A DNA stretch of 64,000 nt from Terfezia claveryi (lineage: Eukaryota; Ascomycota; Pezizomycetes; Pezizales; Pezizaceae), in assembly GCA_015179025.1 (NCBI GenBank), contig WHUX01000268.1, positions 1 through 64,000 on the forward strand, read 5' to 3'. Shown here in pieces: positions 21,919-41,998 of this stretch; the first letter of the stretch is position 1; the number at the start of each line of letters is the position of its first letter. The notes under the pieces are model-generated. The model saw only the letters and a program-made list of their open reading frames with translations, was not told the DNA's origin and did not search any database. Position numbers and translations under genes: made by a program.

Positions 21919-24027
21919 CCTACCAAGGTTACTGCTGTCCAGCAATAGCCAACCCCAGAAAATCTCAAGGACGTCCAAGCCTTCCTGGGATTCGCTAACT
22001 TTTACCGGCGGTTCATTCTAGGGTATTCGAAGATTGTAGCCCCCCTCACCGCCCTGACCAAAAAAGACCGGCATTTCGACTAGAATCCAGAAGCCCAATC
22101 TGCCTTCCAGAACCTTAAGGAAGCCTTCTACTCAACACCGATCCTCACCCATTTCAACTCTAACCAGGAGTGTATTGTCGAAACCGATGCATCCGACTAT
22201 GTTTCTGCGGAAATCCTGTCCCAGAACGATGATAATGGCATCCTCCACCCTGTGGCCTACTTCTCGAAAAAACACTCCTAGGCTGAGTGCAATTATGAGA
22301 TTTATGATAAAGAACTGATAGCCTTTGTGCGAGCTTTCGAGGAATAGAGGCCACACCTGGAGTCAGCCAAGGAGATTATCAAGGTATTGTCCGATCATAA
22401 GAACCTTAAGTATTTTACCACCACCAAGCTGCTGAACTGACGGCAGGCTAGGTAGTCAGAGTTCTTGTCTCAGTTCAACTTCAAGATCAAGTACTGGCCT
22501 GGAAAGGCTGGAGGTAAGCTGGATGCACTGACCAGGAGATCAGGAGATCTCCCTAAAGGGGGGGATGAAAGGCTGAGGTACCAGAATCAGGTGGTACTGA
22601 AACCAGAAAATCTCGACCTGGTGGCCAATAGTCTTGCTGTTGCTGACGCTGATGCTGATGCTAAAGCTGAAGCGAACCCCGAAGCAGATCTCCTTCTGCG
22701 GATATGACGGGCATATGCAGAGGACGACCTGGTTAAGAATATAATCGCCGCAGTGGAGTCTGGAGAGCGCCGTCACACCAAGATTTCCCTAGCCGAGTGC
22801 ACCAGTCAGGGTGGCCTCCTATACCACCTAGATCAGCTCTATATACCTGAAGGGGAGCTGCAGATGCAGCTGATCAAGGAACACCATGATACCCTGGCTG
22901 CGGGTTATCCTGGAGTAGCTAAAACGTTGGAGCTGCTAGCTAGGCAATATACATGGATTGACCAATGGAAGAAGGTGGAGCAGTATATATAGAACTGCCA
23001 TGTTTGCAAGCGTGCTAAGCCTACCCGTCATGCTCCTTATAGGACCCTGAAGCCTCTGGAGATCCCAGACCAGCCTTGACAACACCTAACCATGGACTTT
23101 GTGACTGGGTTGCCGGAGGATTCGGGGTTTAATACTATTCTTATGGTAGTAGACCGATTAACCAAAATGAGGCATGTTATACCTTACCACGATACCTGTT
23201 CTGCCTGGGACCTCGCCGGCCTCTACCTCAACCATGTATTCCGCTACCATAGTCTCCCCAAGTCAGTCGTCTCGGACAGCAGCCCCCAATTTATCTCAGA
23301 CTTCTGGAAGGTATTCTGCGAGCTTTTGGGAATCAACGTACACCTCTCCATGGTGTATCACCCCTAAACAGATAGTCAGTTCGAGAGAATGAATGCAATC
23401 ATGGAGCAGTACCTGAGAGTATACGTCAATTACCAGCAAAACAACTGGGTTTCGCTGCTGGCAACCTGTGAGTTCGCCACTAACAACCATTTCTCGGAGT
23501 CTCTAAAAACCTCCCCGTTCCTAGCCAATTATAGCTGGCACCCTCGTTTCGTGGACTCCCTAGCACCTCTGCACAAGACTAGGGAGAACACCCCAGCTAA
23601 GGAATTCGCCACGGAGATTGCTGAGTTGCACTCCACCCTAAGAGCCGAACTGGTATATGCTCAAGCTAGGCAAGCGGAGTATGCCAACGGATCACGGTTG
23701 CCAGCCCCCAGGTATCAGCCAGGAGATAAGGTGTGGCTCTCTAGCAGGCACTTCCGGACGGAACGGCCATCTCGCAAGCTCGACCATAAGTTCCTGGGTC
23801 CATTCGAGGTGGTGGCCGCTGTGGGCACTTATGCCTATTGATTGAGGTTCCCTAAGGACATTAAATGCTACCCAGTTGTACATGTATCGGAAATTGAGCC
23901 AGCGGCTGACGATCCCCTCCCAGGGCAGAAACACCCCCCACCTCCTCCAGTGGTTATCGAAGGTGAAGAGGAATGGGAGGTGGAGGAAGTACTGGACTCA
24001 TGAAAGAGGTATAGGCATCTGCAGTAT
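21919..24027 (+). pseudogene. pol: E2 Pol part 2 (RT end-RNase H-integrase-chromodomain start), broken
   Basis: The reading frame cut at 9549 resumes (AKVTAVQ). It gives the RT connection region, RNase H (ETDASDYVS near 22175; SDHKNL), an (Asp-Ala) linker 22630-22675, integrase HHCC (C-x2-C near 23000), VVDRLTKM, and chromodomain up to HLQY, where E5 interrupts. At least 12 TAG/TGA stops sit at Gln, Trp and Arg codons, for example near 21947, 22081, 22278, 22347, 22437, 22454, 22705, 22991, 23078 and 23366. There are almost no indels. This stop-rich, indel-poor pattern is what RIP produces. Confidence 0.9.
24023..24027. repeat. E5 target-site duplication, left copy (AGTAT)
   Basis: agtat flanks E5 on both sides (24023-24027 and 39254-39258), exactly. 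Confidence 0.95.
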
Positions 24028-24715
24028 TGTAATGAATGGTACTAGACAGTATTCATTCGGTACCGTTTATACAATCTATATCCGTAGGCACGGACGTTTG
24101 TGTATTTCGGTTCTGCTGAGGTGAGACCTCAGAAGGGTAGGGAGATTACTATGTGGGACGTTCCCGAAGGGAACAGTAATTAACTGGTGTAATCTATCTT
24201 ATATGATTTGTGCTATCTAAGCTATATGATCTTGATCTTATCGGAATATAGGCTTGCTTACTCTGAAGGCTTGCTTGGTTGCTTCTTGTCTTTCTTTGTT
24301 TCTGTGGATTCCAGAGGGAATCCAGTGGCCTATTTATACTCCTCTGAGATCTGATGACTAAGGAAATAAATACAATAAAGGGTGGCACACCAGAAGGTGG
24401 TGCGCTGTACAAAAGGGGTCATGTGGCCATAGTAATGAGTCACATGCCATAAACGATGGTTATGTAGCCATAGTAGTGACTCACACGCCTTTAAACAGAG
24501 GTCACGCGGCCATAATGAGGGTGTCTTCATATGGCAAGTACCATGGAACTTCCCATAGCAAATTCCGCGTGCTATGGACGCTTATAAAACAGTATGGGGT
24601 GGTAGAAGGCTAGTCCTTCAACCGAGAGGCTTAGTTACATAACATAGAAGTAATATAGGAAATACAGAAGTATATAATCAATTATATAAGCAATGAGATA
24701 ACGTTCTCTATTACA
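24028..24715 (-). repeat. E5 3' LTR (family c)
   Basis: 688 bp, TGTAATGAATGG...CTATTACA on the + strand. It carries three roughly 41-bp tandem units starting at 24417, 24458 and 24500 (core GTCAYGYGGCCATA). The adjoining inner sequence cttccccacatag is, on the minus strand, the polypurine tract (ctatgtggggaag). Confidence 0.93.
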
Positions 24716-24743: not shown

Positions 24744-26482
24744 TTACTTCCTTCGCTCTGCCATATTGGTTTCCATACGTCCTAAGATTTGATGCATTGT
24801 TAATACATTAGCATTAACGTGAATATCCTTAGTGTTTCCTTGACTCATGATTCTATCTCGTTCTTGTTGGATGAGAGCTCGGGTCTCATCTCTAGTTCGT
24901 GGTCCTTGTTTTCCTTTAGTCCTTCGATGTCTCTTGAATGTATCTTCCATACTTCCGGTCATCCAGAAGTCTTGAAGAATTTCGGTGGTAATATCCTTGG
25001 CGTTTACCCAGGAATCATATTTAGGAGTGTATCCTAGCCATCTGACCTTATATTGTCTTTCTCCAGTTCGAGGAGCTGTTCTGAATTCTAATACCTTTTC
25101 AACTTCATAACGATCATCTTGAATTGGTCCTGGTTCCCGAGATTGTCTGTGAGGGAACTGGGTAGGATCGTTTTTATAGTAGGGTTTGAGTTTGCTAATA
25201 TGAAAAGTATTATATATAAGGTGGAGGTCAGGTTGACTGGATAGGTCTAGGCTATAGTTATTGCGTTTCCGATTACTAGAAATAATGGGAAATGGGCCTA
25301 GCCATTTTGGTTTGAGTTTGGGTGAGACGTTCGATAGGTTGATATTTTCTGAGGAAAGCATAACTTGTTGTCCAACTGAAAATTTGGCTATATTGGGTAG
25401 TCGTTTGTTCGCTTGAGATGCTTGAGTATTCTTGGCGTCATATAGGTTTTTAGATGTTACCTCATGACGTTCGTTTGCTGGTACATATGCATTAATGGGG
25501 TATGGAAGTATCGATATGCTAAGATGTGCATTAAATCCAAATAGTGTGGAAAAGGGACTATTCTGTCTAGCGGCATTATACCTAGAGTTAAGTTTCAACT
25601 GTATCTCTGGTAGTTTCTGTAGCCAATCAAATCCTTCGATTTTACAGGCTCTTGCTACTTGTAGAATTTCTTTGTTCACAATTTCCGATTGTCCGTCTGC
25701 ACGTGGATGATATGCGGTGGACGGTTCCAACTTGATTCCATTATTCCTAGCCCAATCTTGAAAGTGCGTTGACATAAAAAGAGTGTCGCAGTCAAAAACA
25801 ATACAGAAAGGGTATCCCATTGTCGGGACTACATGAGTATCAAAGGTAGCAGTACATTGTTCTGCTGTGAAATTATCTAAGACAGGAATAAGAAACTTGA
25901 ATCCTGATTGTCTATCGACAATCGTCCAAAGTCGTGAAATACAAACTACATGATCTTCTTCAACAGGAATATTCAGGTACAAAATTGAACACTTAGTAAA
26001 CACAGGTGCTACTTTAAGAAAATCCATCGATATGTCAGTCTATGGCCTGCTTGGTACATGTAATGGGGTTACGAGTCCAAGTGGCGCCTTGTTGGAATAC
26101 TTTGTCCGTTGACAAGTATCACAACTTCTGATATAGTCCTTAGTTAGTTCTGCAAAGGACTGGCAATCATATCGGTCAGTAAGATATTTCATCGTTTTTT
26201 CAATGCCACCATGAGCAGTTGCTTCATGTGCATGTTTAATAACCAATTCGAGATAGTTCTTACCTTCGATGTTAAAGGTAAGGGCAAGACTAGTCTCCAT
26301 TGTCCTTGTCGGTTCTTGACATACAAAAATCCATCTTTTCTTCTATGATCCTTATGATTCACAAAGGTATTATAATAGTTCTTCCAGATAGGACATACTC
26401 TCATACATGATTGATATGCGGCTTTCATACCTGTACCTTGGTAAGCCACTGTGTGATGAAGTAGTCCTTGTCGTCTTCCCAT
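24744..26482 (-). pseudogene. E5 integrase-chromodomain, two frame pieces
   Basis: The zinc-binding part (about 26300-26040) has spaced His residues (HAHEATAHGG) and C-x2-C (SCDTCQRTK). The catalytic core and C-terminal domains are an intact 427-codon block (26027-24744). Core residues seen are Asp in TIVDRQSGF, Asp in IVFDCDTLF, and Glu in ADGQSEIVNKE. A GPY-type segment (KWLGPFPI) and a chromodomain (YEVEKVLEF...YKVRWLGYTP..DSWV) follow, then a Lys/Arg/Glu-rich tail. A TAG at 26040 (a Trp codon in the usual PW motif) separates the zinc finger from the core. It integrates cDNA; the chromodomain is a histone-methyl reader in this family. Confidence 0.88.
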
Positions 26483-27653: not shown

Positions 27654-29237
27654 TTAGGAGGATGATGCTGTTGGAGATATAATCATCCTCGGTGTGGGAG
27701 TATCCAAGTATTTATGCTTTCTTGATAGAGCGTCTGCTATCAAATTTTCCTTTCCTGCGGTATGTTGTATGTCTGTATCAAATTCCATTAGGTAATCTTG
27801 CCATCGCCTCAATTTTTGACTTGCAGGCGTTTGAGTATGGAAGGTTACTAACGGTTTGTGGTCGGTAAGGATAGTGAACTTGTGACCTCTTAATTGTGCT
27901 TCAAAAAATTTTAATGAGTCAATAATCGCTAATAATTCCTTTTGAAAGGTAGGATAATTGAGTTGTGCTGGATTAAATTTTCTAGAGTGGAAGCATGATG
28001 GTCTGATGTGCGTCAACGGTCCTTGACCTATCCAAGATCCTAGTCCTACATCACTAGCATCACAGACTAAATATTTGGGTTCAGTAGATTTATTATTCCA
28101 GGGTTTTAAAACATGTGGGGAATTCACGAGTTCCTTGAGTTTTTCAAATGCTGCGTTATGAGTATCTGTCCATTCCCATTTCTTTGTTTCTCCTTGCAGT
28201 TCTGACAGGGTGCTTGCATACGATGCCAAGTCAGGAATAAATCTGCTGAGATAATTAACTATTCCAAGGAATCCTCTAAGATCCTTTTTTCTTGTAGGAG
28301 TCGGAAATGTTAATATAGTAGTCCTCTTCTTCGGGTCTACATGTAATCCATCTGATGTCAAAACATGTCCTAAGATTTCCAATCTTGGAGTAAAGAACTG
28401 GCATTTGCTTTCTTTGAGATAGAATTTCTCATCCTGTAGACGTTGAAGTACTTTTTTCAATAATTCTACATGTTCTTCATATGTTTTAGAGAATATAATA
28501 ATATCATCAATATAGATGATTAAATTTTTATAGACCATGTCCTTAAAAATTTCATGCATAACGCGAACTATGGTAGCTGGTGCGTTACGATCCCCTTGTT
28601 GCATAACTCTACTTCTGAAAAATCCCATGTGACATAAAAAGGTAGAGTGTTGCTCAGATTCTTCATCGTTCCTGATATTAAAAAATCCGTCGGCTAAGTC
28701 GACCTTAGTCCAAATGGGATTCTCCACTACTAGTTCAATTGCTTCATTAATATCTGGCAATGGGGTGTGATCCGGTTCGATAGCTAAATTGCAGTCTCGA
28801 CAGTCATTGACATGTCGAGCTTCTTCCGGTTTATCTCGTTTAGGAATAGTGAACATGACTACAGCATTTGTGTCATTTTCTACTCTATATATGCGACCTG
28901 ATGCTTCTTCTTCGACTAATTTGTCATGGATTTGTGGTCTAAATTGATGTCCTGAGGGTCGCCATTTTGGTATCCAAGTAGCTCCTGCTTTTGGTTTGAT
29001 AGAGTGATTAATTTTTCTTAGTGGCGGTAATTCCCGTGGAATTGTCTTGGGAAATAATAAGGGAAACTCCGTTACAGGGTTGAATTGTTTCTGTACCGTA
29101 GAAACAGCTGTCACGAGTTCTCTTTCTGAATCGGTTTCGTCTGCGTTACTAATATTTTCCCAATTATCCGGTTCACTATAATCTGCGACTGATTCACAGC
29201 TGACCTGTGTATACGCTGATCTTATACCATTCGCCAT
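27654..29237 (-). CDS. E5 reverse transcriptase-RNase H
   Basis: An open 527-codon block, in frame with the upstream gag ORF across a single TAA (29289-29291). RT motifs visible are KVDLADGFFN, GDRNAPAT, and YIDDIIIFS (about residues 247-255). The RNase H motifs are CDASDVGLG, the TDHKPL block, and a terminal NLIADALSRK. It ends at TAA 27654 instead of running into integrase. The TAA at 29289 is probably a CAA codon hit by C-to-T, so gag and pol were likely one ORF in this family, unlike family a/b. It copies RNA to DNA in the particle. Confidence 0.85.
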   Translation of the reverse strand: MANGIRSAYTQVSCESVADYSEPDNWENISNADETDSERELVTAVSTVQKQFNPVTEFPLLFPKTIPRELPPLRKINHSIKPKAGATWIPKWRPSGHQFRPQIHDKLVEEEASGRIYRVENDTNAVVMFTIPKRDKPEEARHVNDCRDCNLAIEPDHTPLPDINEAIELVVENPIWTKVDLADGFFNIRNDEESEQHSTFLCHMGFFRSRVMQQGDRNAPATIVRVMHEIFKDMVYKNLIIYIDDIIIFSKTYEEHVELLKKVLQRLQDEKFYLKESKCQFFTPRLEILGHVLTSDGLHVDPKKRTTILTFPTPTRKKDLRGFLGIVNYLSRFIPDLASYASTLSELQGETKKWEWTDTHNAAFEKLKELVNSPHVLKPWNNKSTEPKYLVCDASDVGLGSWIGQGPLTHIRPSCFHSRKFNPAQLNYPTFQKELLAIIDSLKFFEAQLRGHKFTILTDHKPLVTFHTQTPASQKLRRWQDYLMEFDTDIQHTAGKENLIADALSRKHKYLDTPTPRMIISPTASSS

Positions 29238-29288: not shown

Positions 29289-30012
29289 TTAGATAGTAAC
29301 TGGTTCCTGATGGGCAGGAATTATTGCTCGCACTTTGCTGAGAGCAGGTTCTCCTAGTATCATGTCCCATCCAGTCAAATGAGCTACATAGAACGTTTGT
29401 TCTTCTACATAACCTATCCAATCAAGTTTGATAGTACAAGCTTTGTCTATCGTTCCTTTTAAGCCTTTAATTGCAGTACTTAATGATTTCTTCTCGATAC
29501 TTCTAGTTGGTATTTTGTATAGGTGTACAAATTGAGAATTGATTAAGTCTCCTCCCTTTGTTTGGAGATCAATTAAAGCTAGTGCGGGGTGTTCATTAGC
29601 TTTAACGAATACCTTGCTAAAATCTAGTACCTGTCTTGACAAGGGTCGTTCCTTGATTTTATCCTTATTGTTTTTATCCTTGGTGGCTATCAGCATAGCT
29701 AAATCTTGTGCGGCTGTACGCATGGGTACCTTATTTTTTCGTTTCCTACAGTCCTTGTAGGAGTGTCCAGGGTTCCAACACCATAGACATTTCTTGTCTT
29801 TAATTAATTGCATCTTCGTCTTCTGATCCAATTTTTTTGTGATGGTGTCCCAATCTGAGTCCTTCCGATTTTCTGTGTTGGGTTTGGTGTTGGGATTGCT
29901 GCTAGGATTAAATCCTGTTTTTTGTCGTTGATTCTGGTCCCTACATGGACCGTGACTTCGATTTTCATTTCGAGGGTGTTGTCGTCGGGATGTATTTGTT
30001 GTGGGTGGTGGG
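29289..30012 (-). pseudogene. gag: E5 Gag C-terminus and protease-like domain (continues from 36245)
   Basis: Downstream part of E5 gag after the E6 insertion. It has a CCHC knuckle (CLWCWNPGHSYKDC, about 29748-29789), a basic linker, then a retropepsin-like segment ending WDMILGEPAL (about 29345-29375). The position that normally holds Asp-Ser/Thr-Gly reads ALIDLQTKGG, so the canonical triad is not visible. The E8 copy reads the same way (ALIDLLTKGR). The block closes with TAA 29289-29291. Confidence 0.82.
30008..30012. repeat. E6 target-site duplication, left copy (GTGGG)
   Basis: gtggg at 30008-30012 and again at 36245-36249, exactly. The site lies in E5 gag. Confidence 0.95.
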
Positions 30013-30561
30013 TGTAACGAGGGCTCTGGGGGACAAGGCGACCAAGGGGTACGCCGGGGAAGTGGCAAGGGGCAATCGCACACGTAGGAGCGCTACGTGT
30101 GTGATCTGGGGAAAGGCTAGGGTAAGACACACGTAGGAACGCTACGTGTGTGACTAGAGGAAGACTGAGACGGGGGGGGGCAAGGGCAAGAGGCAAGAGA
30201 GGCAGAGGGCAAGGGACACGAGACACGCGGAGGCAGTTGCCGCGTGTGTCAAGGGGGGGCAGCTGTACTGCAGAGTTGTAGGTTCGAGGCAAGGATGTGC
30301 ACAAGGGAGGTGCACAAGCGCTGGGGGAAGCAAGATCCTGTATTGGGTATACAAGACGTTGGATGGGGATCCAACAAGAGGGCGGAGAGAGCAAGCTATA
30401 TATACAGGCTTCCTTCCTGGCCAAGGCCACCGGAAGGAATAAGGTTCCCGAGACCCCTTATCTCGGGAACATAGATAACAACGATATCAATCAACAATAA
30501 TGAGAGTCGGACGGAATCCCGTCCGACTCTCAAACCTGGCTAGGAAAGGACGGTTGTGACA
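30013..30561 (-). repeat. E6 3' LTR (b-type U3)
   Basis: 549 bp. On the + strand it reads TGTAACGAGG...GGTTGTGACA. U3 has a perfect 13-bp inverted repeat (GAGAGTCGGACGG / CCGTCCGACTCTC, 30502-30531, loop AATC). Two CACGTAG / CTACGTGTG dyads sit near 30080-30155. Confidence 0.94.
30502..30531. repeat. Perfect 13-bp U3 inverted repeat of b-type LTRs
   Basis: GAGAGTCGGACGG and CCGTCCGACTCTC around a 4-nt centre. It recurs in the E6 5' LTR (36185-36214) and in mutated form in E4 and E7. It is a candidate binding site for a dimeric regulator or an RNA hairpin in the 3' end. Confidence 0.8.
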
Positions 30562-30750: not shown

Positions 30751-33700
30751 TCATTCAGCGGGGCGAGGCTTGAGAGGGTAACGCTGGTGGAATAGGGTGA
30801 CCAGGTCAGGGGCGTTTTCCAGGTCCTCCGCTGGTTGCCAGGTCGTCTCCTCATCTCCCAGCCATTTGACCTTATATTGCAGGTGCCCATACCTTCTTCG
30901 GGAGTCCAGCACTTCCTCTACCTCCCATTCCTCCTCACCTTCGATCACCACAGGAGGGGGAGGGGGGTGTTTCTGCCCTAGGAGGGGATCGTCAGCCGCT
31001 GGCTCAATTTCCGATACGTGTACAACCGAGTGGCGTTTGATGTCCTTGGGGAACCTCAATCGATAGGCATGAGTGCCCACAGCAGCCAACACCTCGAATG
31101 GACCCAGGAACTTGTGGTCGAGCTTGCGAGATGGCCGTTCCGTCCGGAAGTGCCGGCTGGAGAGCCACACCTTATCTCCTGGCTGATACTTGGGGGCTGG
31201 CAACCGTGATCCATTGGCATATTCAGCTTGCCTGGCTTGCGCATATCCCAGCTCGGCTTTCAGGGTAGAGTGAAGTTCAGAAATCTGCGTGGCGAACTCC
31301 TTAGCTGGGTCGTTCTCCCTGGCCTTGCGCAGAGGTGCCAGGGAGTCTACGAACCGAGGGTGCCAGCCATAATTGGCCAGGAATGGGGAGGTCTTCAGGG
31401 TCTCAGAGAAGTGGTTGTTGGCGGAGAATTCGCAGGTGGCCAGCAATGAAACCCAGTTATTCTGCTGGTAATTGATGTACGCCCTCAGATATTGCTCCAT
31501 GATGGCGTTCATACGTTCTGACTGGCCATCAGTCTGAGGGTGGTATGCCGTAGACAGGTGTACTTCAATACCCAACAGCTCACAGAATGTTTTCCAGAAG
31601 TCGGCGACGAACTGAGGGCCATGGTCTGAGACAATCGACGCTGGGAGGCCATGGTAACGGAAGACATTATCCAGGTAGAGGGATGCCAATTCGGGGGCCG
31701 AGCAGGTGTCTCGACAGGGTATCACATGCCTCATTTTCGTTAACCGATCCACTACCATCAAGATGGCGTTGAATCCCGAGTCTTCCGGCAATCCGGTGAC
31801 GAAGTCCATAGTCAGGTGTTGCCAGGGTTGTTCTGGGACTTCCAGGGGCTTCAGGGTACCATACGGAGCATGGCGGGTGGGTTTGGCATGCTTGCAGACA
31901 TGGCAATTCCGTATGTACCGCTCCACCTCCTTCCGTTGGTCAATCCACGTATATTGCCTAGCTAGCAGCTCTAACGTTTTAGCTACTCCAGGATGACCTG
32001 CAGCCAGGGTATCGTGGTGTTTCTTGATCAGCTGCATCCGCAGCTCTCCTTCAGGTATATAGAGCTGATCTAGGTGGTATAGGAGGCCGTCCTGAGTGGT
32101 GCACTCGGCTAGGGAAATCTTGGTGTGACGGCGCTGTCCAGACTCCACTGCAGCGATTATATCCTTAACCAGGTCATCCTCTGCATATGCCCGTTGTATC
32201 CGCAGAAGGAGATCTGCTCCTGGGTTCGCTTCAGCTTTAGCATCAGCATCAGCATCAGCATCAGCATCAGCATCAGCATCAGCATCAGCATCGGCATCAG
32301 TAGCATTAGCATCAGCATCAGCATCAGCATCAGCATCAGTATGGCTAGTGGCCGCCAGGTCGAGATTTTCAGGTTTCAGTACCACCTGATTTTGGTACTT
32401 TAGCCTTTCATCCCCCCCTTTAGGGAGATCTCCTGATCTCCTGGTCAGTGCGTCTGGTTTCCCACCAGCCTTTCCAGGCCGATACTTGATCTTGAAGTTG
32501 AATCGAGATAAGAACTCCGACCACCTAGCCTGCCGTCAGTTCAGTAGCTTAGTGGTGGTGAAGTACTCAAGATTCTTATGATCGGATAGCACCTCAATGA
32601 TCCCCTTGGCTGACTCCAGGTGTGGCCTCCACTCCTCGAATGCTCGCACAATGGCCATTAACTCCTTATCATAGATTTCATAATTACACTCCGCCGGAGA
32701 GTGCTTTTTTGAGAAGTATGCCACTAGGTGGAGGATGCCGTTCACATGCTGGGACAGGATTCCGGCGGACACATAGTCAGAGGCATCTGTTTCTACGATA
32801 CACTCGCTGTCGGGGTCGAAGTGGGCCAGGATCGGGGCTGAGCAGAAGGCTTCCTTGAGTTTCTTGAAGGCAGATTGGGCTTCCAGACCCCACTGGAAGC
32901 GTTGGCCCTTTTCCATGCCCTTGGTCTTGGTTAATGCTGTCAGTGGTGCCACGATCTTCGAATATCCCAGAATGAACCGGCGATAGAAGTTAGCAAAACC
33001 CAGGAAGGCCTGTACATCCTTGAGGTTGGCTGGAGTTTCCCACTCCTGGATCGCAGCAACCTTCGCAGGGTCCATCTGGATGCCCTCCGTGGTGATAATT
33101 AGCCCCAGATACTTGACCTTCTGCACATGGAACTCGCATTTTTCCGGCTTCAGATATAACCCAGCTCCCTCCAGCTTCTCCAGCACTTGTTGGACGTGGA
33201 TCTTGTGTTCTGCTAGGGTATCCGAGTAAATGAGGATATCGTCCAGGTAGGCGGTACAGAATACGTCCAGAAAGTCCCGCAGAGTATCATTGATAAAGTG
33301 CTGAAAAGAGGCGGGGGCGTTGGTTAAGCTGAAAGGCATCACATTATACTCAAAATGGCCATATCGCGTCCGGAAGGCAGTTTTCCACTCCTCCCCCTCG
33401 GCGATCCGTACCAGGTTGTAAGCCCCTCTTAAATCCAATTTGGTGAACCATTTGGCCTTGGAGAGCCTGGCTAATGTCTCCTGGATCAGGGGCAAGGGGT
33501 ACCTGTTTTTTACCATAATCTCATTCAGGCCGCGATAATCCACGCACAACCTAAGGGAGCCGTCCGACTTCTTCACGAACAGCACCGGGGCACCCGCTGG
33601 GGAGGAGCTGTGGCGAATGAAGCTCTTGTTGAGGTTTTCCTCCAGATACTTTTTTAGAGCTTCCAGTTCCATCTGGGACATCCCATAGAGAGGTCCATAA

Positions 33701-35683: not shown

Positions 35684-36087
35684 ATCCAACGTAGTGTAAC
35701 GAGGGCTCTGGGGGACAAGGCGACCAAGGGGTACGCCGGGGAAGTGGCAAGGGGCAATCGCACACGTAGGAGCGCTATGTGTGTGATCTGGGGAAAGGCT
35801 AGGGTAAGACACATGTAGGAACGCTACGTATGTGACTAGGGGAAGACTGAGACGGGGGGGGGGCAAGGGCAAGAGGCAAGAGAGGCAGAGGGCAAGGGAC
35901 ACGAGACACGCGGAGGCAGTTGCCGCGTGTGTCAAGGGGGGGCAGCTGTACTGCAGAGTTGTAGGTTCGAGGTAAGGATGTGCACAAGGGAGGTGCACAA
36001 GCGCTGGGGGAAGCAAGATCCTGTATTGGGTATACAAGACGTTGGATGGGGATCCAACAAGAGGGCGGAGAGAGCAAGCTATATATA
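35684..36087 (-). promoter_or_regulatory. E6 TATA box, RNA-start region and self-priming site
   Basis: Minus strand: TATATATA at 36087-36080; about 40 nt on, ATCCAACGT at 36047-36039 in R; and its perfect complement ACGTTGGAT at 35692-35684, 2 nt inside the 5' LTR end. Same geometry as E3 and E4. Confidence 0.55.
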
Positions 36088-36244
36088 CAGGCTTCCTTCC
36101 TGGCCAAGGCCACCGGAAGGAATAAGGTTCCCGAGACCCCTTATCTCGGGAACAGAGATAACAACGATATCAATTAACAATAATGAGAGTCGGACGGAAT
36201 CCCGTCCGACTCTCAAACCTGGCTAGGAAAGGACGCTTGTGACA
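35695..36244 (-). repeat. E6 5' LTR (b-type U3)
   Basis: 550 bp, pair of 30013-30561. One extra G in a G run and a handful of transitions distinguish them. It is followed by the right copy of the GTGGG duplication at 36245-36249. Confidence 0.94.
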
Positions 36245-37733
36245 GTGGGGCAATATCCTTTTTGGAAGCTTCATATGACTCTGCTTGATGTACGAGCTGA
36301 TCATATGACCATTCTTCTTTGATTAAAGGAATTAATGTAGCTGACATATATGGCGGCAGGTGATTAAGAAACTTTCTTCTTTTTACTTCCTGCGATATTG
36401 ATTGTTTGCCATCCTTGTCAATCAATTTGATTTGCATTTCAGTAAGCCAGTTGGCAAACTGTTTGATTCCCATGTGACGTCCGTTCTTGTATGGTATAGC
36501 TGTCTCCCATCGTTTCTACAAAATGTCCTTACTAGTAGAGGGTATCAGAAAATCCCTTAGCGCTAGTATGAATCCAAAGAATGTCGCATTCTTTCCTTTT
36601 TCTCTTAGGAATTGATTATAAGTAGTAAGCGCACTCCCTTCCATTCTGAATCCAACAATTTCCAGAGCTGAAGCGCCTTCTAAATCTATTCTTTTGAGAA
36701 CAAACCAACGTTGCATTGCTGTAGCCCAAGAGTCAAAATATTGTGAATCTTGCCATTTTTTGTCTTCTCCTCTTAATTTTTCTGGCATATCAATCTTTAT
36801 TCCTTTTAAAGCATTCGTTGCTTTATGGTTACCCATTGTAACCATTCCTGTTGTAGATTCCCATTGTTGGTGTTCAACTGATTTTCCTCGTTTGGGTTTT
36901 CTTTTAAGAGTTTGACTTGCAACTGAAGATGCCTTATCAGAGTCCGAGCTATCATCTCCGCTATCATCGGGGTCTCGTCCTCCTCCTTGTGTTTTCTGCT
37001 GCTGTTGGTCTAGTCCTGTATCTAGATCATCATCGTCTTCTGGTAATTCTATATCTTCTGGTGGTTGGTTTTCATCATCTGGTTCTTTGGCTGACCCAGT
37101 CCTCCTTTCTGGTATCTCAGGTGCTCGACCTTTGCCTTTCGATTGATCTTTTGGTGTTCTCAGGAATGCTCCTGGAAGTTCTTTGCTAGGATTGAAAAAA
37201 TCCTCCGCGGTATGTGCTGATTCTTCTAGATGAGTACCGCTCATCATGAATGCCATTATTTCTTCCCAGTTGTTTATTACCCAATTCGGTTTCCTTAAAA
37301 GTGGTACAACAGGTTTCCTTAATTCTTTACTTAAAAATGCGTTCATTTCTAAGTCTTCTTCTTTGAATGGGTAAGGTGTTAGCCATAAGTAGTGTTTTGC
37401 TATGGCTTCCATTAAGAGTCGAGTATCATCAGGATGATACTGTTGGGCATGTCCCATTGAGCGAGTATATTTCAAAATCTCCTTAATTGTTGGAAGATGT
37501 CTATCCCAAAATTCTTCTGGTGCGAAAGGTAAAGCCATACTAAAATATAGTTTGGTTCCTGCTCTACCTGGTTCTCCTATTTCTATATCGATGGGCAGAT
37601 TTATTTCCCCTTCTGTGTTAGGAATTATAAATCTGGTCTTTCTGGGAGTTTCTTCTACTAATTTCTTAATATCTTCGGGTAACATAGTTAACCGTCTCGA
37701 CCTCTTAGTCTTCTTACTAAGTTCAGACGCCAT
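36245..37733 (-). pseudogene. gag: E5 Gag N-terminal part
   Basis: Family c Gag from the ATG at 37733. It has a Lys/Arg-rich N-terminus, a helical region to about 37250, a linker with an acidic run (LPEDDDDLD) and Ser-rich basic segment, and a second helical domain (about 36760-36270) resembling retrotransposon Gag capsid (WQDSQYFDSW, FANWLTEMQ). TAG at 36516-36518 replaces the GAG codon of E8 and breaks the frame. It continues at 30012 after E6. The ATG is 1 bp from the start of the divergent + strand ORF. Confidence 0.85.
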
Positions 37734-37734
37734 T

Positions 37735-38337
37735 ATGTCTGATTTCGTCGTCTGTCCGCAACCAAATGCAGCTGGTTATGCAATACGATCGTCGAGTTAC
37801 TTTTCTTCTTTGGCACCTTTCTGTGCTGATGGTGTGGTGGCTGATGATCCTTATGATCTCCGTTCGACTGACGGTTCTGTTGGTTCGGTTGCTCACGAGG
37901 CTGGTGAGGCTGGATGTCAGGATCCTGATGTTTCTTATGGTCCTGGTTTTTCTTCGTCTACTAGTCTAGAATCTAGTTCTAGTTCTTCCGGCAAGAGTGT
38001 CACGTTTTCTGATTGGTGTGTTGAGGTAGACGTTGGGGGCGCAGAGGTATTGGTAGAGATGTCTGGGCCTAAGGAAGGTTCTGATGGAGGTAATTCTTTT
38101 CTGGAGGAAATGGCTGCAGTGGAGGCAGCGAGATTTGAGCCTTGGGATTGTGACGCTTGGTTGTTTAGACCAATTATTCCTGGGACCTGGGGGGCCGGTT
38201 TTTCAATGGTATACTGGATTTACAGGTACAGATGTAATGGCGGTTGCCAGGAGTGCAAGATGAGTTGTCGATCTTATTGGGAAAAGTGTTGTGAACGAGG
38301 GTGTGATTGTTTAATGTGGGATACCACTGCCCGTTAG
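37735..38337 (+). CDS. Divergent Cys-rich accessory ORF of family c (E5 copy, intact)
   Basis: An intact 200-codon ORF on the strand opposite to all other E5 genes, in the leader between gag and the 5' LTR. Its ATG (37735) and the gag ATG (37733, minus) share CATTATG. The N-terminal third is polar, then a Ser-rich tract (SSSTSLESSSSSSG, about residues 77-90) and a Trp-containing acidic region. The C-terminal 35 residues hold eight Cys (RCNGGCQECKMSC...KCCERGCDC). An AATAAA signal follows at 38495. E8 and E9 keep the same frame without indels (40181, 41692). There is no clear signal peptide or membrane segment, and no family recognised. It might regulate silencing or transposition, but this is unproven. 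Confidence 0.7.
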   Translation: MSDFVVCPQPNAAGYAIRSSSYFSSLAPFCADGVVADDPYDLRSTDGSVGSVAHEAGEAGCQDPDVSYGPGFSSSTSLESSSSSSGKSVTFSDWCVEVDVGGAEVLVEMSGPKEGSDGGNSFLEEMAAVEAARFEPWDCDAWLFRPIIPGTWGAGFSMVYWIYRYRCNGGCQECKMSCRSYWEKCCERGCDCLMWDTTAR

Positions 38338-38565
38338 AGCTCTGCTTAGCTTGCTTCTAAGTCTTTGTTGATGTACTGCAGTTGAGAGTCTGATGTCTCG
38401 TTTGTTGGATTTTTTTGTTGGCTAGCTAGTGGAATAACGATATCGATTTTATATGTGCACTTGGGTGTCGTATTGTATACACTTGCGTGAGTGTAATAAA
38501 GGTATCCGAAGGTTGATCAGGCCTTGAATTTAAGAGTAAAGATTAGGTAAGTAAGTTAAAAAAAA
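38338..38565. other. Family c leader, non-coding
   Basis: Region between the accessory ORF stop and the LTR. It holds AATAAA at 38495-38500 (+ strand), a gtaagt-like stretch and an A-rich end (aaaaaaa) against the LTR. No tRNA-type primer site starting TGG adjoins the LTR on the minus strand. E8 (40784-41010) and E9 (41999-42227) have the same layout. Confidence 0.6.
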
Positions 38566-39253
38566 TGTAATGAATGGTACTAGACAGTATTCATTCAGTA
38601 CCATTTATACAATCTATATCCGTAGGCACGGACGTTTGTGTATTTCAGTTCTGCTGAGGTGAGACCTCAGAAGGGTAGGGAGATTACTATGTGGGACGTT
38701 CCCGAAGGGAACAGTAATTAACTGGTGTAATCTATCTTATATGATTTGTGCTATCTAAGCTATATGATCTTGATCTGATCGGAATATAGGCTTGCTTGCT
38801 CTGAAGGCTTGCTTGGTTGCTTCTTGTCTTTCTTTGTTTCTGTGGATTCCAGAGGGAATCCAGCGGCCTATTTATACTCCTCTGAGATCTGATGACTAAG
38901 GAAATAAATACAATAAAGGGTGGCACACCAGAAGGTGGTGCGCTGTACAAAAGGGGTCATGTGGCCATAGTAATGAGTCACACGCCATAAAGGATGGTCA
39001 TGTGGCCATAGTAGTGACTCACACGCCTTTAAACAGAGGTCACGTGGCCATAATGAGGGTGTCTTCATATGGCAAGTACCATGGAACTTCCCATGGCAAA
39101 TTCCGCGTACTATGGACGCTTATAAAACAGTATGGGGTGGTAGAAGGCTAGTCCTTCAACCGAGAGGCTTAGTTACATAATATAGTAGTAATATAGGAAA
39201 TACAGAAGTATATAATCAATTATATAAGCAATGAGATAACGTTCTCCATTACA
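38566..39253 (-). repeat. E5 5' LTR (family c)
   Basis: 688 bp, the pair of 24028-24715, with about 16 differences. On the minus strand a consensus TATA box TATAAATA (38876-38869) is followed by a perfect GGATTCC-CTCT-GGAATCC hairpin. Three roughly 41-bp U3 repeats lie upstream of the TATA; one carries CACGTG near 39042. Confidence 0.93.
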
Positions 39254-39258
39254 AGTAT

Positions 39259-40180: not shown

Positions 40181-40783
40181 ATGTCTGATTTCGTCGTCTG
40201 TCCACAACCAAATGCAGCTGGTTATGTGATACGATCATCTAGTTATTTTTCTTCTTTGGCACCTTACTATGCTGATGGTGTGGTGGCTGATAATCCTCAT
40301 GATCTCCGTTCGACTGACAGTTCTGTTCGCTCGGTGGCTCACATAGCTAGTGAGGCTGGATGTCAGGATCCTGATGTTTCTCATGGTCCTGGTTTTTCTT
40401 CGTCTACTGCTCTAGAATCTAGTTCTAGTTCTTCCGACAAGAGTGTTACGTTTTCTGATTGGTGTGTTGAGGTAGATGTTGGGGGCGCAGAGGTATTGGT
40501 AGATATGTCTGGGCCTAAGGAAGGTTCTGATAGAGGTAATTCTTTTCTGGAGGAAATAGCTGCAGTGGAGGCAGTGAGATTTGATCTTTGGGATTGTAAT
40601 GCTTGGTTGTTTAGACCAATTATTCCTGGGACCTGGGGGGCCGGTTTTTCAATAGTGTACTGGATTTACAGGTACAGATGTAATGGCGGTTGCTAGGAGT
40701 GCAAGATGAGTTGTCGATCTTATTGAGAAAAGTGTTGTGAATAAGGGTGGGATTGTTTAATATGGGATATCACTGCCCATTAG
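40181..40783 (+). pseudogene. Divergent accessory ORF, E8 copy (truncated by TAG)
   Basis: Same start geometry as E5: gag ATG at 40179 (minus), ATG at 40181 (+). It is open for 171 codons and then stops at a TAG that is CAG in E5, a C-to-T change just before the Cys-rich tail. Downstream TGA/TAA replace Trp and Arg codons up to the original stop at 40781-40783. No indels against E5. About 18 amino-acid differences in the first 170, with the Ser-rich tract and the TFSDWCVEVDVGGAEVLV core fully conserved. Confidence 0.75.
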
Positions 40784-41010: not shown

Positions 41011-41691
41011 TGTAATGAATGGTACTAGATAGTATTCATTCAGTACCATTTATACAATCTATATCCATAGGCACGGACGTTTGTGTATTTCGGTTCTGCT
41101 GAGGTAAGACCTCAGAAGGGTAGGGAGATTACTATGTGGGATGTTCCCGAAGGAAACAGTAATTAACTGATATAATCTATCTTATATGATTTGTGCTATC
41201 TAAGCTATATGATCTTGATCTGATCAGAATATAGGCTTGCTTGCTCTATATGCTTGCTTGTTGCTTCTTGTTTTTCTGTTCTGGATTCCAGAGGGAATCC
41301 AGCGGCCTATTTATACTCCTCTGAGATCTGATGACTAAGGAAATAAATACAATAAAGAGTGGCATACCAGAAGGTGGTGCGCTGTACAAAAGGGGTCATG
41401 TGGCCATAGTAATGAGTCACATGCTTTAAACGATGGTCATGTGGCCATAGTAATGAGTCACACGCCTTAAACAGAGGTCACGCGGCCATAATGAGGGTGT
41501 CTTTATATGGCAAGTACCATGGAACTTCCCATGGCAAATTCCGCATGCTATGGATACTTATAAAGTAATAGGAGGTGGTTGAAGGCTAGTCCTTCAACCG
41601 AGAGGCTTAGTTACATAACATAGTTGTAATATAGGAAATACAAAAGTATATAATCAATTATATAAGCAATGAAAAAACGTTCTCCATTACA
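41011..41691 (-). repeat. E8 5' LTR (family c)
   Basis: 681 bp, TGTAATGAATGG...CTCCATTACA, three U3 repeat units. It is followed by the sequence of the E9 accessory ORF, so E8 inserted inside that ORF. Expected TSD copy: cgttg 41692-41696. Confidence 0.92.
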
Positions 41692-41998
41692 CGTTGGGGG
41701 CGCAGAAGCATTGGTAGAGATGTCTGGGCCTAAGAAAGGTTCTGATGGAGGTAATTCTTTTCTAGAGGAAATAGCTGCAGTGGAGGCAGCAAGATTTGAG
41801 CCTTGGGATTGTGATGCTTAGTTGTTTAGACCAATTATTCTTGGGACCTGGGGGGCCGGTTTTTCAATAGTGTACTGGATTTACAGGTACAGATGTAATG
41901 GCGGTTGTCAAGAGTGTAAGATAAGTTATCAATCTTATTGGGAAAAGTGTTATGAACGAGGGTGGAATTGTTTAATGTGGGATACCACTGCCCATTAG
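41692..41998 (+). pseudogene. Divergent accessory ORF, E9 fragment
   Basis: Codons homologous to residues about 101-200 of the E5 ORF, same frame, no indels. TAG replaces Trp in CDAWLF near 41818. The Cys tail keeps CNGGCQEC but changes two later Cys residues. The stop is at 41996-41998. Confidence 0.72.

Follow-up and report, generated by a model that had tools for sequence, protein, structure and literature searches.

The gypsy element E5 of Terfezia claveryi appears to carry a third, protein-coding gene, which runs backward in the gag-pol leader, is expressed from an antisense RNA of its own and yields a product acting in trans; we assign this reading as a whole a probability of about 0.6. 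Its parts differ in strength. The antisense accessory ORF (aORF) is very probably a real protein gene under selection, and it is probably read from its own antisense transcript. By analogy, the product may be a trans-acting regulator or an anti-silencing factor, for which we would give slightly less than even odds. The window analyzed here is the whole 64,000-nt stretch of contig WHUX01000268.1 in which E5 lies.

The antisense ORF and its carrier element

E5 lies on the minus strand as a complete insertion, and its features, together with those of the aORF, are as follows.

24023..24027, no strand: left copy of the target site duplication (TSD), AGTAT
24028..24715, minus strand: 3' LTR of E5 (repeat and LTR comparison)
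24744..26027, minus strand: E5 pol, integrase core, Tf2-1-like SH3 and chromodomain (Pfam: rve, SH3_Tf2-1, Chromo)
27654..29237, minus strand: E5 pol, reverse transcriptase and RNase H (Pfam: RVT_1, RNaseH)
36516..37733, minus strand: E5 gag ORF, 405 aa, ATG at 37733 (ORF list, gag homologues)
37731..37737, no strand: CATTATG, back-to-back start codons of aORF and gag with one base (37734) between them
37734..38565, minus strand: gag leader, 832 nt from the 5' LTR to gag, ATG-free on the sense strand, with the whole aORF on the other strand
37735..38337, plus strand: aORF, 200 aa, 200 codons intact, antisense to gag-pol, between the 5' LTR and gag (ORF list, homologues)
38495..38500, plus strand: AATAAA, possible poly(A) signal of the antisense transcript
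38566..39253, minus strand: 5' LTR of E5, with TATA-like words at sense LTR positions 27, 39, 377 and 644
39254..39258, no strand: right copy of the TSD, AGTAT

The paired 688-bp LTRs differ at 16 of 688 positions, have ends of the TG..CA type (TGTAATG..ATTACA) and are flanked on both sides by AGTAT. Both by these LTRs and TSDs and by the order of its pol domains, in which reverse transcriptase and RNase H precede integrase and chromodomain, E5 is a Ty3/gypsy chromovirus LTR retrotransposon. The integrase ORF stops 28 bp short of the 3' LTR, so that there is no room for an accessory ORF at the 3' end. At the other end, the TATA-like word at sense position 377 of the 5' LTR (TATAAA) is TATAAATAGG. 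The stretch adjoining this LTR (38540-38566; sense TTTTTTTTAACTTACTTACC) has no TGG-type start and shows little likeness to a tRNA primer binding site; its complementarity to the LTR extends over 6 bases at most. A second LTR element, delimited by direct repeats (30012-30471 and 35694-36154; 98-100% identical), is nested in E5 between gag and the reverse transcriptase, and a CAGCAT-like repeat array occupies 32208-32366, close to the start of the integrase ORF of this nested element.

The gag protein of E5 is 95% identical over 61% of the query to a protein of T. claveryi (hypothetical protein BGX38DRAFT_1280541) and 34-39% identical to 11 homologues from outside Terfezia (coverage 66% or more); a Pfam search with gag as read gave no match. 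The genome, 72.6 Mb in 794 contigs, contains a single STE2 pheromone receptor, as is typical of Ascomycota. One gag homologue (36% identity), P0124, is an NCBI protein labelled as coming from a Pseudolysinimonas MAG; given this homology, that bacterial MAG probably contains a fungal contig.

Both the intact 200-codon ORF opposite gag-pol and the start codons 1 bp apart within a shared CATTATG had been proposed from the letters of the DNA, and both are present as described. Because of the one-base spacing, the ATGs of aORF and gag each have an A at -3. The aORF frame stays open upstream to 37552 and holds a further in-frame ATG at 37591; the start is placed at 37735 on account of the conserved residues MS, with 37591 as the alternative. 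Codon usage was not discriminating, since that of the aORF is no closer to gag's than are the frames of the opposite strand. Just 3' of the AATAAA, the plus strand at 38545-38555 (AG/GTAAGTAAG) resembles a strong donor site at which an antisense transcript might be spliced.

Homologous proteins in other lineages

As the sequence-only reading had advised, the 200-aa product was searched against other proteins, and this gave 2 homologues by single-sequence search and 113 by profile search. The 113 matches lie mostly on short ENA contigs, and many are visibly broken or truncated. Full-length homologues are P0004 (195 aa) and the group of P0097, P0099 and P0104 (244-252 aa), which are close relatives and are counted as one observation. 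The E5 product (P0001) is 39% identical to P0004 over 196 columns (E=6e-32) and 35% identical to P0097 over 230 columns (E=7e-31), and P0097 and P0004 are 31% identical to each other (E=2e-27). Common to all three proteins are the MS start, KSVT[FW][SC]D, PGTWGA, GGCQECK and the end WDTTA[R/F]; in P0097 the MS is internal and the predicted start lies further upstream. The motifs containing Cys, Trp and Gly are the best conserved between lineages. By these comparisons, homologues are present in at least two other lineages and the aORF is not a chance frame, which bears out the earlier claim of a genuine divergent accessory gene in a gypsy family. It looks conserved about as well as gag (31-39% versus 34-39% identity), the two sets possibly coming from different elements; the contigs that carry them have no length in common. 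No homologues were found in the viral contigs searched.

We infer, reading the placement from the protein itself, that the other two lineages also have elements with the same antisense layout. In P0097, P0104, P0021, P0023 and P0101 the frame runs upstream of the start into residues that resemble the antisense of the E5 gag start (SSGNIV, CSGNIT), which suggests that gag lies there too. A codon-compatibility comparison of the upstream residues of seven homologues with five gag N-termini was not significant: a single pair of 35 (P0101/P0117) beat its 15 shuffles. The result is a protein family with no Pfam model, whose carriers are a gypsy element here and, by inference, elements in at least two further lineages.

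Absence of AUG from the sense leader

The 832-nt sense leader contains no ATG against 7.1 expected, a count that 0 of 2000 dinucleotide shuffles reach, and ATG has the lowest P of the 60 triplets tested; the opposite strand of the same leader has 20 ATG (17.4 expected). When the aORF protein was held fixed and randomly recoded with the codon usage of the element, 7.7 CAT were expected, and of 20000 trials 0.025% had none (P=0.00025). If instead the codons of the aORF itself were shuffled, the absence of CAT had only P=0.11, because this null retains a codon set that is already poor in CAT; TCA is depleted as well (4 versus 11.3 expected, P=0.0035). CAT reappears in decayed copies, with 0-8 in 22 older copies and 0-3 in 44 younger ones. 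Inside the LTR, the part 3' of the TATAAA at 377 retains two ATGs, whose uORFs of 24 and 4 codons both end before gag.

The simplest reading is that ribosomes would scan the leader, if it is unspliced, to reach gag, and that selection has removed upstream AUGs opposite a stretch that encodes a protein. Read in this way, the leader segment shows a double constraint, with a protein on one strand and no AUG on the other. Moreover, P0004, P0097, P0099 and P0104 contain no His (CAT/CAC); at the His rate of this element, such absence has P=0.003 for P0004 and 0.0006 for P0097. P0001 has one His, and over 107 sequences of the decayed ENA group the proportion is 0.84%. The His-free homologues fit the same arrangement elsewhere, opposite an AUG-free leader. 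The combination of a protein on one strand with the exclusion of AUG from the other could also serve as a sign, readable from DNA, for spotting further cases.

Copies in the Terfezia genome

A protein search of the genome with the aORF found at least 150 places with 82-100% identity, many with stops; among the places listed, the matched part is free of stops in 54 of 150. Among the matches listed, a divergent aORF start lies within 200 bp of the gag 5' end in 83 of 106 cases, the 106 ends being taken from 122 rows and the other 23 not thereby shown to be aORF-less, and in 75 of the 106 the two starts have exactly the spacing of E5. The aORF is thus present in most copies of the family, as is generally expected of antisense aORFs. 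CATTATG persists in 45 of 51 copies, as does the downstream AATAAA in 45 of 52, the copies scored being mostly the best protein matches and not a random sample. Divergent subfamilies were sought with P0003 as query: 8 of about 22 outlying places were examined and all belong to the same family, six of the eight with a split ORF match. The matches in this genome, among those listed and examined, are copies of the aORF family.

Two further copies lie in the window.

40181..40783, plus strand: E8 copy of the aORF, all 603 bases gap-free, in-frame stops at codons 172, 182 and 188 (alignment)
41688..41998, plus strand: E9 copy of the aORF, last 311 bases gap-free, one in-frame stop (codon 142) (alignment)

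The sequence-only reading had stated that E8 and E9 keep the frame without indels, that the Ser-rich tract and a core motif are identical between E5 and E8, and that an AATAAA follows the ORF. Both copies are indeed gap-free, but E8 has three in-frame stops and E9 one. The core TFSDWCVEVDVGGAEV is identical, whereas the Ser tract has a Ser to Ala change inside and a Gly to Asp change at its edge. The AATAAA is present at 38495 and widely kept, as counted above, but E8 and E9 have AATGAA in its place.

The aORF copies in this genome are young, and they decay neutrally, mostly by point mutation. Among singleton changes, 85 nonsynonymous, 25 synonymous and 4 stop changes were observed against 82.3, 23.9 and 7.8 expected; changes found in three or more copies include 16 synonymous ones against 12.9 expected (P=0.13). 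No excess of synonymous change was thus found among the copies of this genome, and the proposed dN/dS comparison fits neutral decay. Among the 40 closest copies, with E5 included, 17 have indels in the ORF, and three of these indels are common to 3-4 copies. With copies so young, so many ORF indels and neutral N/S counts, a frame kept without indels is not the sign of function for which it had been taken. Because the family is young and its variation resembles decay after insertion, dN/dS among genome copies is uninformative about selection. At the cut-offs used, younger and older copies differ systematically at four sites only. Frequent indels with dN/dS near 1 had been named in advance as grounds for rejecting the gene, and both were seen; in our view such a test does not suit dead copies, and it is the homologues found elsewhere that count.

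Among the 45 changes common to at least three copies, C to T changes at CpG number 24 and those at CpA 20, a spectrum resembling that of methylation or RIP. A comparison of indel density between ORF and leader in 40 copies (14 distinct indels in 603 nt versus 16 in 228 nt) was set aside, since these copies had been ranked by ORF similarity and the comparison is biased. A figure of 51/52 from the same comparison was also set aside, as it reflects mostly one indel of E5 itself and a T-run.

Protein features and predicted structure

Residues 1-135 of the product are acidic (pI 4.05) and Ser-rich, and residues 136-200 form a near-neutral module (pI 7.9) rich in Cys and Trp. The tail is even denser in Cys than had been noted, with eight in 26 residues (167-192) instead of about 35. 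Cys 171, 174, 178 and 185 are common to P0001, P0004 and P0097 and could bind metal. Residue 190 of the tail is Trp in P0004, P0097, E8 and E9. A secreted, toxin-like Cys protein was considered and dropped, and with it the description of the product as secreted-like, as no hydrophobic stretch resembling a signal peptide is visible by eye.

Structure prediction, which had been suggested for the Cys tail, yielded a helix there (172-187, with pLDDT block means of 74 and 83), but the AlphaFold2 models are poor, with mean pLDDT of 48 for P0001 and 41.5 for P0097. In the P0001 model only this helix and a beta hairpin (93-109) fall in blocks with means above 70. A sequence search of PDB with the aORF protein gave no convincing relative, and none of 14 matches in a PDB fold search with the P0001 model reached E<=0.001. 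In Pfam no convincing family was found for the aORF family (best E 0.0078, in one member); the 10 families matched by the 60 members searched at E up to 1 are weak and were not used. As the models are poor, the function of the aORF rests on analogy.

Proposed mechanism and alternative explanations

Since a single base separates the two start codons, separate promoters cannot fit between them, and an accessory mRNA that uses the ATG at 37735 would have to begin inside gag, on the other strand. Its 5' end would fall near the beginning of the gag frame, in the simplest case between 37735 and the upstream plus-strand ATG at 37591, and its 3' end close to the AATAAA that precedes the LTR; transcription from a point upstream of 37591 would yield a longer protein. 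An unspliced gag mRNA would hold the full complement of the aORF. With at least 600 complementary bases between the two mRNAs, production of the antisense RNA may itself dampen gag. The product, with its acidic, Ser-rich front and the Cys/Trp-rich module behind it, would act in trans, most likely in the nucleus, where it may tune the element's own transcription or blunt host silencing, a role that has been proposed for the plant antisense accessory proteins and is known for HBZ of HTLV. A more elaborate version, which we consider unlikely, is a two-way switch: the head-to-head starts (CATNATG) would make gag and accessory RNAs complementary and mutually exclusive, each element copy would be either 'gag on' or 'accessory on', and in the latter state the accessory protein would be made and would counter the silencing triggered by sense/antisense RNA. 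If the product is a regulator or an anti-silencing factor, repeat-rich truffle genomes would offer a setting in which the escape of elements from control can be studied.

Two alternatives dispense with the protein as the working part. The conserved thing may be the sense leader, an AUG-free and possibly structured 5' UTR serving packaging, priming or translation, with the aORF as a by-product that makes no protein. The exclusion of AUG does indicate that the leader itself is constrained, and the genome copies have no excess of synonymous change. Between lineages, however, frame, MS start and the stop behind WDTTA[R/F] all persist although the proteins are only 31-39% identical, and as far as the proteins compared can tell, a noncoding RNA is not expected to hold one frame open at such divergence, which makes this explanation improbable. 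Only slightly better placed is the antisense RNA, which could pair with the gag leader to limit gag (copy-number control) or feed small RNAs. The one-base spacing of the starts forces any two mRNAs to overlap here, and Vicient and Casacuberta (PMC7264820) raise a dsRNA route for plant aORFs. Such an RNA leaves the conservation of the protein across lineages unexplained; it could act together with the protein, and we doubt that it is the working part by itself.

The other two alternatives accept a protein and differ in its role or origin. A structural or capsid-associated factor, such as a nucleic-acid chaperone whose Cys module binds zinc, would suit the four Cys common to three lineages, the predicted helix at 172-187 and a gag that, as read, has no Pfam match. 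Antisense expression would be an odd route for a part of the particle, and the strongly acidic residues 1-135 are unlike a nucleocapsid; there is, in our view, a small chance that it is correct. Recent chance capture of a host gene fragment is the least probable of all, to the point of being nearly negligible. Accessory ORFs of some elements do arise by transduction (PMC7264820), but this family occurs in three diverged lineages, has no convincing relative in Pfam or PDB, and in this genome is matched, among the places listed and examined, by copies of itself.

Comparison with known systems

The sequence-only reading knew of no such gene in fungal gypsy elements. This needs correction, since Boty (BcGypsy1) of Botrytis cinerea has an antisense gene, brtn (Zhao et al. 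2011, as cited in PMC7264820 and PMC8365987; also PMC5987419), and the gag-pol of Boty includes a chromodomain (PMC4227169). Like the aORF of E5, brtn is thus an antisense accessory gene in a fungal LTR element with a chromodomain. By description, which is the basis of the comparison, brtn sits between pol and the 3' LTR (PMC7264820), whereas the aORF of E5 lies between the 5' LTR and gag. An antisense gene in the latter position in a fungus was not found in the literature searched, which covered few subscription journals; nor did that literature yield a description of the 5'-leader position with back-to-back starts in fungi or of the aORF protein family.

In plants, antisense aORFs are described for Grande (gene23), RIRE2, Retand (TRP28) and PvRetro13; Grande's has its own promoter, and the products have been proposed to be nuclear or DNA-binding regulators (PMC7264820, PMC11963269). 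Their orientation is that of the E5 aORF, but they lie between pol and the 3' LTR. Plant accessory ORFs can also be situated upstream of gag-pol, in either orientation (survey cited in PMC7264820), and PMC7264820 calls the functions of antisense accessory genes of LTR elements unknown. The TRP28 domain PF04195 was not matched by any of the 60 aORF family members (Pfam, E up to 1).

HBZ of HTLV-1 is an antisense regulator, a bZIP protein encoded at the 3' end and started from the 3' LTR. The aORF of E5 resembles it in being an antisense gene of an LTR element, and differs in that Pfam gave no sign of a bZIP domain. An HTLV antisense promoter is mentioned in PMC7264820. In the Drosophila MDG1 group, sORF1 and sORF2 lie upstream of gag and their expression has been demonstrated, with sORF1 being subnuclear (PMC11952523). 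They share the position upstream of gag with the E5 aORF but are sense ORFs on the main transcript, whereas the aORF is on the opposite strand. To the antisense accessory genes known from LTR elements, the E5 aORF adds one from a fungus that occupies a new position.
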